64,000 nucleotides of DNA from positions 18,647-82,646 of the forward strand of contig CAOKOS010000003.1 in the NCBI GenBank assembly GCA_948470255.1, read 5' to 3'. Every line of letters begins with the position of its first letter. Within the stretch, counting starts at the first letter, position 1. This stretch comes from an uncultured Lachnotalea sp. GTDB lineage: Bacteria > Bacillota > Clostridia > Lachnospirales > Lachnospiraceae. The notes beneath the pieces are model-generated. The model was given only the letters and a program-made list of their open reading frames with translations, made no database searches and was not told where the DNA came from. This document shows positions 16,028 to 62,733 of this stretch, one piece after another. A program made the translations under genes and the position numbers.

Positions 16028-16178
16028 AGCGATGCCGTCCATTGACAAGGGACGGTATAGGACGGATTGATAAAACATTGTTTCCCCCTTCTTCCGGGAA
16101 TAATGCCGGCAAAACGGTACATACTGACTGTAAAGGCTGGTGCCGGTATTGAAAGAAACGAAGAAAGAGGGAAGATCC

Positions 16179-33837: not shown

Positions 33838-33949
33838 ATACATAAAATAATTGCAAAAACATGCAAAGTATATTTAATGATACCGATTGGAGCGAGTGTG
33901 CTCTTGTCAACCGACGGTATGAATGGTGAATGTTGGAAAGGAAACCGCT

Positions 33950-58805: not shown

Positions 58806-58842
58806 TAAGAAGCCGGCGGGGTTCTCCCCGCCGGTTATCTTA
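58806..58842. terminator. Hairpin between convergent ilvE and R gene
   Basis: AAGCCGGCGGGG-TTCT-CCCCGCCGGTT. Confidence 0.7.
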
Positions 58843-60211
58843 TGCGGCAGCCTTTGATTTCGGATGCTTTTTGAGAAACAGTATCGTCGATGTACTGCTT
58901 CCAGGCAGGGGCTTCCAGAATATCTCTGCGGGATTCACACTTAACAATCAATTCTCTGAGTTTTTCAGGATTTGCCTTATTTGCCTCAAACATTGCCACA
59001 AAGTATTTCTGGAACTGTCCCAAGGTAAGCGGAACAATATCCAGCCGCTGCTTTATATCACCCTTTGCATACCAAATGCCGTGTCTGAAGGTTTCTGCTG
59101 TGTTGGTGTCGATACGGACAGCAATAAACATACCATATACAGGCTTATCATATTTCAGAACAGCATCGGAAACATGCCGTCTGACAGGCTCACCCTCCAT
59201 TGCCTCTTGACGGGAAGATGTGGACATAGTAACTTCAGTTAAAATTGTAAAGTCACGAAACTCACAATACAGATCGCCTTTTCCACCTCCCGCAGCCGAT
59301 ACGGGTAAAAAATCAGAATCCAATTTGAAACCACGGACTTCATAAGGTTTATTGACCATATGATCAATGGCCAATGCCGCACGCCACAGTGTCCACTCAA
59401 GATACGCAGGAGTCTCATCCTTGGGTACTTCAATGGCATTATCCTCGTCATAGACCAGCTTGCCGCCGCCTTTGACCAGAAGAGTCATATAATCCCGGAT
59501 TTCTTCCCAGTGGTTGTGCTGATCGTTGGCATACTGAATTTCATCCGTCTGAGCGAGGGTATTTTCGAGCCTTTGCCTTGCAATATTGATTTCCGCCGGG
59601 GTATTCAGAGGCAGATCAGAAATATCATACAGAATATGACGCTCTTTCATCTGCCTGATCAAATCATCCAATAGGGCTTTAGCGATTTTTACATTGTCGG
59701 TAGGCAGAGGCGCGCCTGTACAGAGCAGCTTATACTGCTCCATAATAGGCTCTGAACTTGCGGTGGCTTTTGCAAGCTTCTCTGCCAGAACATGCTTTGC
59801 TGGTACGATAATAAGGCCTCTGCCTTTGCGTTGAAATATACCGGAAATGCGAAGATACCGCATATTCATGTCACTGTAATCTAAAAAATTATCGGTTTTT
59901 TTATCATAGTTTTCGCCTCTTCTGGCAATCTCTTTCTTATCAAAGGGACGTTTAGCTGGGGCAATAGCTCTTCGCTGACGCAGATCAAGGATATTATCAA
60001 TCACCTCTTCCAAATTATAGCTGGGATTAGTGGGGTGTCCCCATAGAGCAAATTCAATTCTGCTCAGTTCAGAGGAGCCTGTACGTTTCTCAAGCTCCAG
60101 CATGATTGCCAGTAACCATCTCAAAGGAGAGAAATAACGCACACCATCCGACATAGGAAACTGTTCTACACTCATTGCCCGGAGGTACCGTCGCTTGACA
60201 AGAGCGCACAC
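58835..60211 (-). pseudogene. AlwI-family type IIS restriction endonuclease, C-terminal (catalytic) fragment
   Basis: RGFKLDSDFLPVSAAGGGKGDLYCEFRDFTILTEVTMSTSSRQEAMEGEPVRRHVSDA resembles the RE_AlwI catalytic region; first ~10 residues come from the inserted element. Confidence 0.8.
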
Positions 60212-60462
60212 GGTCGAAAAAGGGGGAAATTCAGCTCCTGCGGCGTTACTTTCACTCCGCGTACGTCCGGTACGCGTCGGTCAAGTGCCTTGCAGGGGCT
60301 GAATTTTATCCCTTTTCGACTTTTCAACCCTGACCACTGACATTTGCTTGATTTTTAAGGCAGACGATGGAGGTGTACTGGACGTACACCGACTAAGGAT
60401 AACGCAGAAAATCAAGCAAATATCGTGGCTCAGGGCGTGTATGTCCTTGTCAAGCGACGGTA
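60186..60462. mobile_element. ~276-bp MITE-like / structured insertion element in the endonuclease gene
   Basis: Perfect 17-bp TIRs TACCGTCGCTTGACAAG (60186-60202) / CTTGTCAAGCGACGGTA (60446-60462); two nested hairpin arms (60213-60320 and 60328-60435). Confidence 0.8.
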
Positions 60463-60823
60463 ATTCCTGTATTGCCGGGTATGTATCCGCTTTTAGAAAC
60501 GATCTGCCAAAAGGCGTAATGTTGTCCAATGTGCCGAGATCTTCCTGCCGTCCGTCCTTTTTCTGAATCTGCGGATAAATCAAGCCGTTTTTAGCAAACA
60601 TCAGCCGCCATTTACGGGCATGGCTTCCAGAACTGTCCTTGCCCTTTTCATTCTGAATTATGCCTTTTTCATCAAGCAAATTCATAAATCCAAGTTCATT
60701 TTCACGACCATGGAGATGTCCGACAAACGCAGAGTTAGCAAAGACAGAGAAGCCTTCTTGAATCCGATTGGGATTGCGCAGGCCAGTGTTGCCTACCAGC
60801 CATATTTTAATCTGTTCGTTCAT
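60463..60823 (-). pseudogene. AlwI-family type IIS restriction endonuclease, N-terminal fragment (frame runs into element to 60281)
   Basis: IKIWLVGNTGLRNPNRIQEGFSVFANSAFVGHLHGRENELGFMNLLDEKGI; RBS GGAGATGACAGT; directly after MTase. Confidence 0.75.
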
Positions 60824-60837
60824 ACTGTCATCTCCAA

Positions 60838-62733
60838 TCAATACCCAACAAAAAGGTATTCCTGTACGGAATTTCTATGTGTCTTTGCGTCGCTCTGATT
60901 TCCAAATGAATACTTGTAATCAACAGGGATGACTTCTACATGTTGCTTGTATTTTGCCATAATTGCCACCATTTCATCCTGGGTAGGCAGGCTGTTTGAG
61001 GAATAGGAAACAATTAGAATTTTATCCGCAAATTTCCTAAACAGACGATCAAACGCATCTGCTGCGCCTTTGCGAGTGGCAAATGGCGTAGGATACGATT
61101 TAAACTTTTTTGTTTGAGTGTGCTGCTGAATTTCAACGCCTTTCCAGTCACGGGCAAGGCCTTCCACAAAATGGTATCTACGGACATATTCATTGTCAGA
61201 TAGGGGGGAGTAGTACGGTGGGTCAATGTAAACCAAATCCGCTTGCTCCACTCTTAAATCCATAGCATCTCCCAGCCTGGAACGATTGATCTGTCCATTA
61301 TCAAATACAGCCTTATCGACCGCCTCAACGGCCTCCAGAAACTGCTGGACAAGAGTCTTTTGTAAATCTTTGCGACCATCATTGTACCGTTGCCCTGTGT
61401 AGGTAAATATACCACGGGGGCGTTTCTTTATACATGCACGGATCAACGCTGTCATTGCAATAGCGTGTTTGTATTGATCTTTGATTGCGGCAATATTGGT
61501 ACGTAGTGTATCAATCAAATCATTTTCTTCGTCAGTGTAGTAAAGGCCCTTGAAAGTTGATGCTACAAAATGATCTGACTCTTTATGTGTAACCAGCAGT
61601 TCTTCCGCTTCCCCTAACGGCAGGGTAACGGAATTGTTCTCCACCATTGCCTTAGCAAATGTGGCAGACATCGCCATATAATCGTTACTGACTACAGCTT
61701 TGCCGTGTGCTTTGAACATATAGCCGACGATACCGGAACCAGAGAAAAGATCAACAACAGTATTCACCTTAAACTGCGAGGCAACCGACCATATTTCGGA
61801 CAATAGCTTGCTCTTTGAACCCATAAAACGAGTGGGCGGATAGGCTGACACCTGTTCTGGCAGAGGCTGATGGAGCAGCTTAATTAAAGTGCGCTGCTTC
61901 GGAGGAATGGTGACGATGACATCCTCACCTTTGCGAGTACTGCCATTACAAGAAATATGCCGCTTTGTTTGGAGGACGTCAATATTGAATGGAGCGTATA
62001 ACTCATGCACCAGCGGATGATTGGAATTTGTTAAAATGACATGACATCCCCGTTCATGCAAAGCCATAATCATCTTCGCAAGCTCAACATGATCCTCTTC
62101 GTAAAACTGTTCTTTGGTATATCGCTTAAAATCAGCATATTCAGAGACAGGCAAATAGGGGGGATCAAGGAAAACAAAGTCTCCCGGCTGAGCGTGATGC
62201 TCCAAAACCAGCAGATAGTCACCGCATAGTATATCTGCTTTTTTTAATACTTCGGATGCTGCTTTCAGTCCAGCCTCATCGCAAATCTTGGGGTTTTTGT
62301 ATTTCCCATAGGGGACATTAAATTGCCCCTGTTTGTTGACACGATATAATCCATTAAAGCAAGTTTTGTTCAGAAATATCGTTCTTGCAGCAGCTTCCGC
62401 CTTGGGGAGTGCCGTCCATTCCTGACTACGGACAGCATAAAACATCCCGGAAGTATTTTCGTACTGTTTAAGGAATCGAATTACATTCTCCACATGACCG
62501 GCAACTTCCCGATACATATTAATCAGTTCAGGATTGCTGTCTGCAATAATTGCGCTTTCCGGCTGTAAAGCAAAGAACATTGCGCCGCCGCCAAAGAATG
62601 GCTCAATATATCGGCCATAGGAGCTGGGTACTTTAGACATGAGATCGCCTAACATCTGTGTTTTGCCGCCGGCCCATTTTAAAATAGGCTTGGCTTGAAT
62701 AGGCTCTGCTTTTCTAACTGCTTGATCGGCCAC
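60838..62733 (-). CDS. Fused two-domain D12-class (Dam-like) adenine-specific DNA methyltransferase
   Basis: Domain 1: ILKWAGGKTQML, FFGGGAMFFAL, DPPY; domain 2: RFMGSKSKLLSEIW, VDLFSGSGIVGYMF, YIDPPYYSPLSDNEY; M.FokI-like architecture. Confidence 0.93.
   Translation of the reverse strand: MADQAVRKAEPIQAKPILKWAGGKTQMLGDLMSKVPSSYGRYIEPFFGGGAMFFALQPESAIIADSNPELINMYREVAGHVENVIRFLKQYENTSGMFYAVRSQEWTALPKAEAAARTIFLNKTCFNGLYRVNKQGQFNVPYGKYKNPKICDEAGLKAASEVLKKADILCGDYLLVLEHHAQPGDFVFLDPPYLPVSEYADFKRYTKEQFYEEDHVELAKMIMALHERGCHVILTNSNHPLVHELYAPFNIDVLQTKRHISCNGSTRKGEDVIVTIPPKQRTLIKLLHQPLPEQVSAYPPTRFMGSKSKLLSEIWSVASQFKVNTVVDLFSGSGIVGYMFKAHGKAVVSNDYMAMSATFAKAMVENNSVTLPLGEAEELLVTHKESDHFVASTFKGLYYTDEENDLIDTLRTNIAAIKDQYKHAIAMTALIRACIKKRPRGIFTYTGQRYNDGRKDLQKTLVQQFLEAVEAVDKAVFDNGQINRSRLGDAMDLRVEQADLVYIDPPYYSPLSDNEYVRRYHFVEGLARDWKGVEIQQHTQTKKFKSYPTPFATRKGAADAFDRLFRKFADKILIVSYSSNSLPTQDEMVAIMAKYKQHVEVIPVDYKYSFGNQSDAKTHRNSVQEYLFVGY

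Follow-up and report, generated by a model that had tools for sequence, protein, structure and literature searches.

MITEs are usually regarded as passive leftovers defined by their ends, and each of the families RUP, NEMIS/Correia, bcr1 and EFAR is described as confined to a genus and as having sequences of its own; bcr1 is reported to be specific to the B. cereus group. All four are listed among the bacterial MITEs in PMC3733652. The bacterial MITEs (PMC3733652) resemble an element in the 64-kb stretch of DNA analysed here (the window), in that they are short and ORF-less, with 15–30-bp terminal inverted repeats (TIRs), many intergenic copies and RNA or DNA hairpins; their TA or short target duplication would have its counterpart in the terminal TA of the element, a probable duplication. 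Unlike in those MITEs, however, a covarying core of ~50 nt is common here to elements with different TIRs from several genera and classes and from two phyla.

Other described systems share part of this plan. The GTAG- or CGTC-tagged REP and REPIN sequences (PMC3733652) are likewise repeated extragenic palindromes with imperfect hairpins, but REPs measure 20–40 bp and have no TIR or target duplication, whereas the full elements studied here span ~160–280 bp with TIRs; the window element, at 277 bp with TIRs, lies outside the REP/REPIN definition of a tagged 20–40-bp palindrome lacking TIRs. Integron attC sites similarly conserve structure above sequence and are recognised as a folded single strand, whereas the elements here are dispersed singly and have TIRs, and no inverse core site was noticed in them by eye. 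In Streptomyces, the insertion sequence IS1648 and its IS5-family relatives have the terminal sequence GGGCCTGTCCGGCGGATCATG and the CTAG flanks of the one-arm elements described below, but these IS1648-type elements encode a transposase and lack any trace of the structured core, and the Lachnospiraceae ends are unrelated to theirs in sequence. Rfam 15 holds no family matching the element, the sole match on it being a chance-level one to mir-190 (27 bits, compared with the 48 required). The open-licence literature searched yielded nothing relevant to the core sequence; one Pseudomonas paper gave a 17-mer match. The core could nevertheless have been described in ISfinder or in a subscription journal.

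Architecture of the element and the interrupted AlwI-type gene

The window element is short, multi-copy and transposase-less, with no coding ORF except read-through, and is bounded by perfect 17-bp TIRs (Table 1). These ends, the lack of coding capacity and two arms with apical hairpins had been described in an earlier sequence-only reading of the locus, and all were recovered: the covariance model returned the arms with exactly the boundaries proposed there (E ~1e-23 per arm, with no further match in the 64-kb window), the apical hairpins have the sequences given there, and the gap-free alignment of arm 1 with the reverse complement of arm 2 was reproduced. The folding energy of the element strand is −147.5 kcal/mol, compared with −81.3 ± 4.8 kcal/mol for 200 dinucleotide shuffles (z = −13.9).

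Table 1 Features of the element and of the gene that it interrupts (window coordinates)
Feature	Coordinates	Strand	Remarks
Whole element	60186..60462	.	277 bp including the terminal TA at both ends; copies in congeners 274–279 bp, with base-aligned ends
Left TIR, TACCGTCGCTTGACAAG	60186..60202	+	First TA is the probable target duplication
Right TIR, CTTGTCAAGCGACGGTA	60446..60462	-	Exact reverse complement of the left TIR
Basal stem, inner left part	60203..60212	+	Pairs with 60436–60445
Basal stem, inner right part	60436..60445	-	Pairs with 60203–60212
Arm 1	60213..60320	+	Pyrimidine-type core on the plus strand; covariance model 99.7 bits
Arm 1 conserved core, GCGTTA...GCCTTG	60243..60292	+	Apical hairpin CGCGTAC-GTCCG-GTACGCG at 60258–60276
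Linker between the arms, TTTTCAA	60321..60327	+	7 nt; family form TCNNNGA
Arm 2, inverted relative to arm 1	60328..60435	-	Covariance model 97.8 bits
Arm 2 conserved core, AAGGC...TAACGC	60357..60405	-	Apical hairpin GGTGTAC-TGGAC-GTACACC at 60372–60390
AlwI-type restriction endonuclease gene, 5′ part	60463..60841	-	Residues as far as ...AIQE, by tblastn of intact homologues
AlwI-type endonuclease gene, 3′ part (PF09491)	58835..60185	-	Homologue comparison

The order of the parts is nearly invariant among two-arm elements: 20 of 21 consist of a plus-strand arm, 7 nt and a minus-strand arm, the remaining one having a 9-nt linker. Most have a TCNNNGA linker (TTTTCAA in the window, TCCGAAGGA in L073), so that the linker ends are able to pair. 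Both ends of the element present the same arm, oriented alike. Elsewhere in the window, the TIR hairpin recurs twice as a mini copy without arms, at 33881–33919 (TACCGATTGG...CCGACGGTA) and 16033–16057 (TGCCGTCCATTGACAAGGGACGGTA).

On the minus strand, the frames to either side of the element together make up one AlwI-type restriction endonuclease (PF09491, E = 2e-91), half of it in each. Intact homologues are uninterrupted at the site (...PA[VI]QE-C[YF]-LRAMSVEQF...), where the window element parts AIQE from YLRAMSV. The absence of the insert from these orthologues rules out that it is ordinary coding sequence, a possibility that the sequence-only reading had raised against itself. In the closest homologue (L159, 89% protein identity), GGAATGCTACC stands in place of the window's GGAAT[TACCG...CGGTA]CC, and this comparison places the element at a TA, with GC additionally missing from the expected target; a clean TA duplication is thus not seen there. 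A search for empty sites among the congener loci covered here returned AlwI homologues only. Split by the element, the AlwI-type gene is probably inactive. The split endonuclease adjoins a fused D12-class adenine methyltransferase (window 58835–62733), and an orphan methylase is the likely outcome of the split.

Distribution of two-arm and one-arm elements

The TIR pattern (≤2 mismatches) matches the source genome 34 times, compared with 4 times for a reversed control pattern, and the copies there include mini forms of 40–55 bp without arms, one-core forms of ~120 bp and a single full copy. Congener G006 has at least 12 copies with 94–98% identity, and congeners G005 and G007 have full copies of 268–278 bp with ~70% identity. 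In G013, which belongs to a different genus, four copies at 77% have different ends (TAGCGTCAGTGTACAGGGG, the ends of the window's own TIR family being labelled TACCGTCG...), and their arms still align. Full-length relatives of equal size occur in three other congeneric species and one further genus, and a TA is present at the start and end of all but one of the 21 full copies, at unrelated sites. An arm model (R1) found the family in 55 of 397 Lachnospiraceae genomes (53 genera), and a pattern scan gave as hosts Blautia, Mediterraneibacter, Merdimonas, Ruminococcus turbiniformis and uncultured Lachnospiraceae. The sequence-only reading had made its case depend on further copies, of which there are many in the same and other genomes, and the full-length ones in congeners uphold its account of inverted, duplicated arms in an insertion element. 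The 34 TIR matches, compared with 4 in the control, and the copies at 94–98% identity in one congener put the window element, which is real and probably a non-autonomous MITE, far beyond chance.

Elsewhere, one-arm elements predominate. G295 has 27 model matches, and the one-arm elements read there are CTAG-flanked, one copy (L153) having CTAT on both sides. A second model (R2) matched 27 of 399 sampled Bacillota genomes from many families. In the model searches generally, E-values from the short calibration are rough, and some of the weak matches (below about 40 bits) may be generic hairpins. The core consensus also matched Streptomyces plasmids, with 80% identity over 95% of the query and again within long palindromes. 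The arm core is common to one-arm elements across Bacillota and Streptomyces, a breadth that the sequence-only reading had underestimated.

Phage and E. coli collections gave no core match at the same sensitivity as the Streptomyces search, and a phage or E. coli origin was rejected on this ground. Two IMG/VR pattern matches seem to be due to chance in coding-like sequence, one being weak by the model and the other unmatched. Among 44 other loci (151 kb) there was a single match, which is a real element. In a further Bacillota lineage, a two-arm element (L185:1415–1893) lies inside a match to the T-box leader (RF00230), as if inserted there; that match is below the gathering score and spans 479 nt, compared with 219 positions in the model. 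In L192 (G755) and L193 (G608), the core helix is lengthened between its conserved halves by a hairpin or by ~12 extra pairs.

Covariation and conserved mismatches in the arms

Structure rather than sequence had been proposed to be conserved in the arms, and the alignments bear this out. In the set of 21 full copies, 79–81 of the 82 consensus pairs are retained by every representative of the four lineages compared; in 68 distinct arms aligned with the R1 model, 91% of cells pair, and compensatory double changes occur in 31 of 33 pairs. Cells with a double change number 674, compared with 214 in shuffles and at most 121 with the partner strand slid, and these shuffle statistics leave relatedness in and do not separate covariation from kinship. 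Stem sequences and terminal repeats vary between lineages, while the pairing is retained.

As the 68-arm alignment had been fitted to the R1 model, core pairs absent from that model were also examined, in 102 arms. Column pair 40–92 is standard in 98% (73% when shuffled), pair 43–89 in 93% (40%) and pair 47–84 in 52% (20%). Between these pairs, steps 41–42/90–91 are TC/TC (with T variants) in 62 arms, two standard pairs in 32 and mixed in 8, and TC/TC is found at steps 44–45/86–88 in about 95% and at steps 48–49/81–83 in about 85% of the sequences. On the complementary strand, TC/TC reads 5′-GA-3′/5′-GA-3′ (tandem G-A), an arrangement that stacks in both RNA and DNA; the purine strand would be the one whose fold is selected. 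The interior of the MITE is probably a widespread selected fold, and its core, which recurs with compensating changes from gut Lachnospiraceae to Streptomyces, may be a structured signal, in DNA or RNA, that has not been described.

Putative transposase partner and possible roles of the folded interior

The core-bearing Streptomyces elements end in CTAGGGCCTGTCCGGCGGATCATG, which is identical at 24 of 24 nt to one end of a CTAG-bordered insertion sequence of the IS5 family; the ends of IS1648 on SCP2, also CTAG-flanked, are closely similar. IS427-group (IS5 family) target duplications are 2 bp and sometimes 4 bp long (PMC3281130), lengths with which the TA and CTAG flanks fit; the target-site evidence consists of the TA ends of the full copies, the GC-less window site and the CTAG/CTAT pairs of the one-arm G295 family. 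Mobilisation in trans, as put forward in the sequence-only reading, is inferred: a partner transposase with matching ends was found for the Streptomyces relatives only, and none in the Bacillota tested, where the family searched was PF01609. No IS5-family end matching the window's own TIR was found: G000, G006 and G007 gave no PF01609 match, MAGs often losing insertion sequence copies; matching ends were absent from the PF01609 transposase loci of the other Bacillota genomes searched, assemblies that may lack such copies; and none of 20 transposase loci scanned contained a YTAR-bordered TIR pair 700–2200 bp apart. Candidates for an autonomous element were rejected in G007 and G295, where there was no convincing TIR pair at insertion sequence distance, and at L123, where the ORFs between arms 1.4 kb apart are not transposase-like by eye. 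On a plasmid of Streptomyces sp. NBC_00984 (L201), ~55 bp separate a structured element from the end of a DDE transposase gene (PF13751); the two are probably chance neighbours.

The dispersal of the element, its ends, the gene interruption, the covarying fold, the common core and the identity of the Streptomyces ends with those of IS5-family elements there are established. Taken as a whole, they are probably best explained by a MITE that is moved via its TIRs by a DDE transposase and whose interior is a selected folded module, although the pairing of long palindromes can also persist through template-switch correction without selection. In Lachnospiraceae, the element would be mobilised in trans by a DDE transposase partner encoded elsewhere, which would cut and paste it through its TIRs; this enzyme would most likely belong to the IS5 family (IS427/IS1648-like) and generate a 2-bp TA or 4-bp CTAG target duplication. 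Each arm would consist of a ~30-bp stem of free sequence holding the ~50-nt core at a fixed distance, and the core would form a helix with conserved TC/TC steps (tandem G-A on the complementary strand) and a GC-rich hairpin cap. Together with the 7-nt linker and the basal stem, the two inverted arms would make a fixed junction, so that the same arm would appear in the same orientation at each end. The core may be bound by a protein. Our preferred view, to which we give about an even chance, is that the fold is recognised as DNA that is extruded or becomes single-stranded during replication; action in read-through RNA has a lesser but appreciable chance.

Among the alternatives, an RNA-level module is possible but doubtful: the fold would act in read-through transcripts (through antitermination, RNase III processing, protein binding or self-cleavage), softening or controlling the effect of insertion, with the TIRs alone serving movement. 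Covariation combined with conserved unpaired positions is typical of structured RNA, the tandem G-A of the purine strand is a motif common in RNA, and two inverted arms would supply one correctly oriented copy whichever the direction of transcription; arms oriented alike at the two DNA ends are, however, equally natural for a DNA signal, and the module matches no Rfam family. Element orientation relative to neighbouring genes gives no clear bias: one-arm copies in tandem gene contexts lean one way, but not significantly (22 versus 10, p = 0.05), and a further count gave 37 versus 27 (p = 0.26).

It is unlikely that the element is an ordinary MITE in which only the TIRs matter, the arms being palindromic by template-switch correction and the core being kept by common descent. 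Hairpin-templated correction is a known process, TIR symmetry is kept within each lineage, and derivatives that have lost one or both arms by internal deletion are frequent. The TC/TC mismatches nevertheless stay nearly invariant from Lachnospiraceae to Streptomyces while the flanking stems are saturated, which argues against such simple palindrome upkeep because correction would erase mismatches; moreover, the ends vary between lineages and the core is constant.

We consider improbable a folded single-strand transposition substrate, recognised as ssDNA hairpins in the manner of REP/REPIN (Y1 transposase) or integron attC. The conserved imperfect hairpins, GTAC/GTAG apex and fold retained without sequence would suit such a substrate, but the TIRs with TA or CTAG flanks, the Streptomyces ends identical to those of an IS5-family DDE element and the lack of an attC-type inverse core recognisable by eye do not. 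Chance or an assembly artefact can be dismissed, since independent copies exist in numerous assemblies, some of them isolate genomes or finished Streptomyces plasmids, even though the source assembly is fragmented and incomplete (87 contigs).

For the MITE with a selected interior, we propose tentatively, with slightly less than even confidence, that the ~50-nt core is an undescribed functional motif (a protein-binding or catalytic RNA, or an ssDNA hairpin signal) built on tandem G-A pairs, occurring in MITEs with different ends in two phyla and needed for spread or host tolerance. In these elements, the ends are the variable part and the folded interior is conserved across phyla. The conserved interior suggests that the fold is read by some factor, either of the host or associated with the transposase, and that the motif is one missing from Rfam 15.
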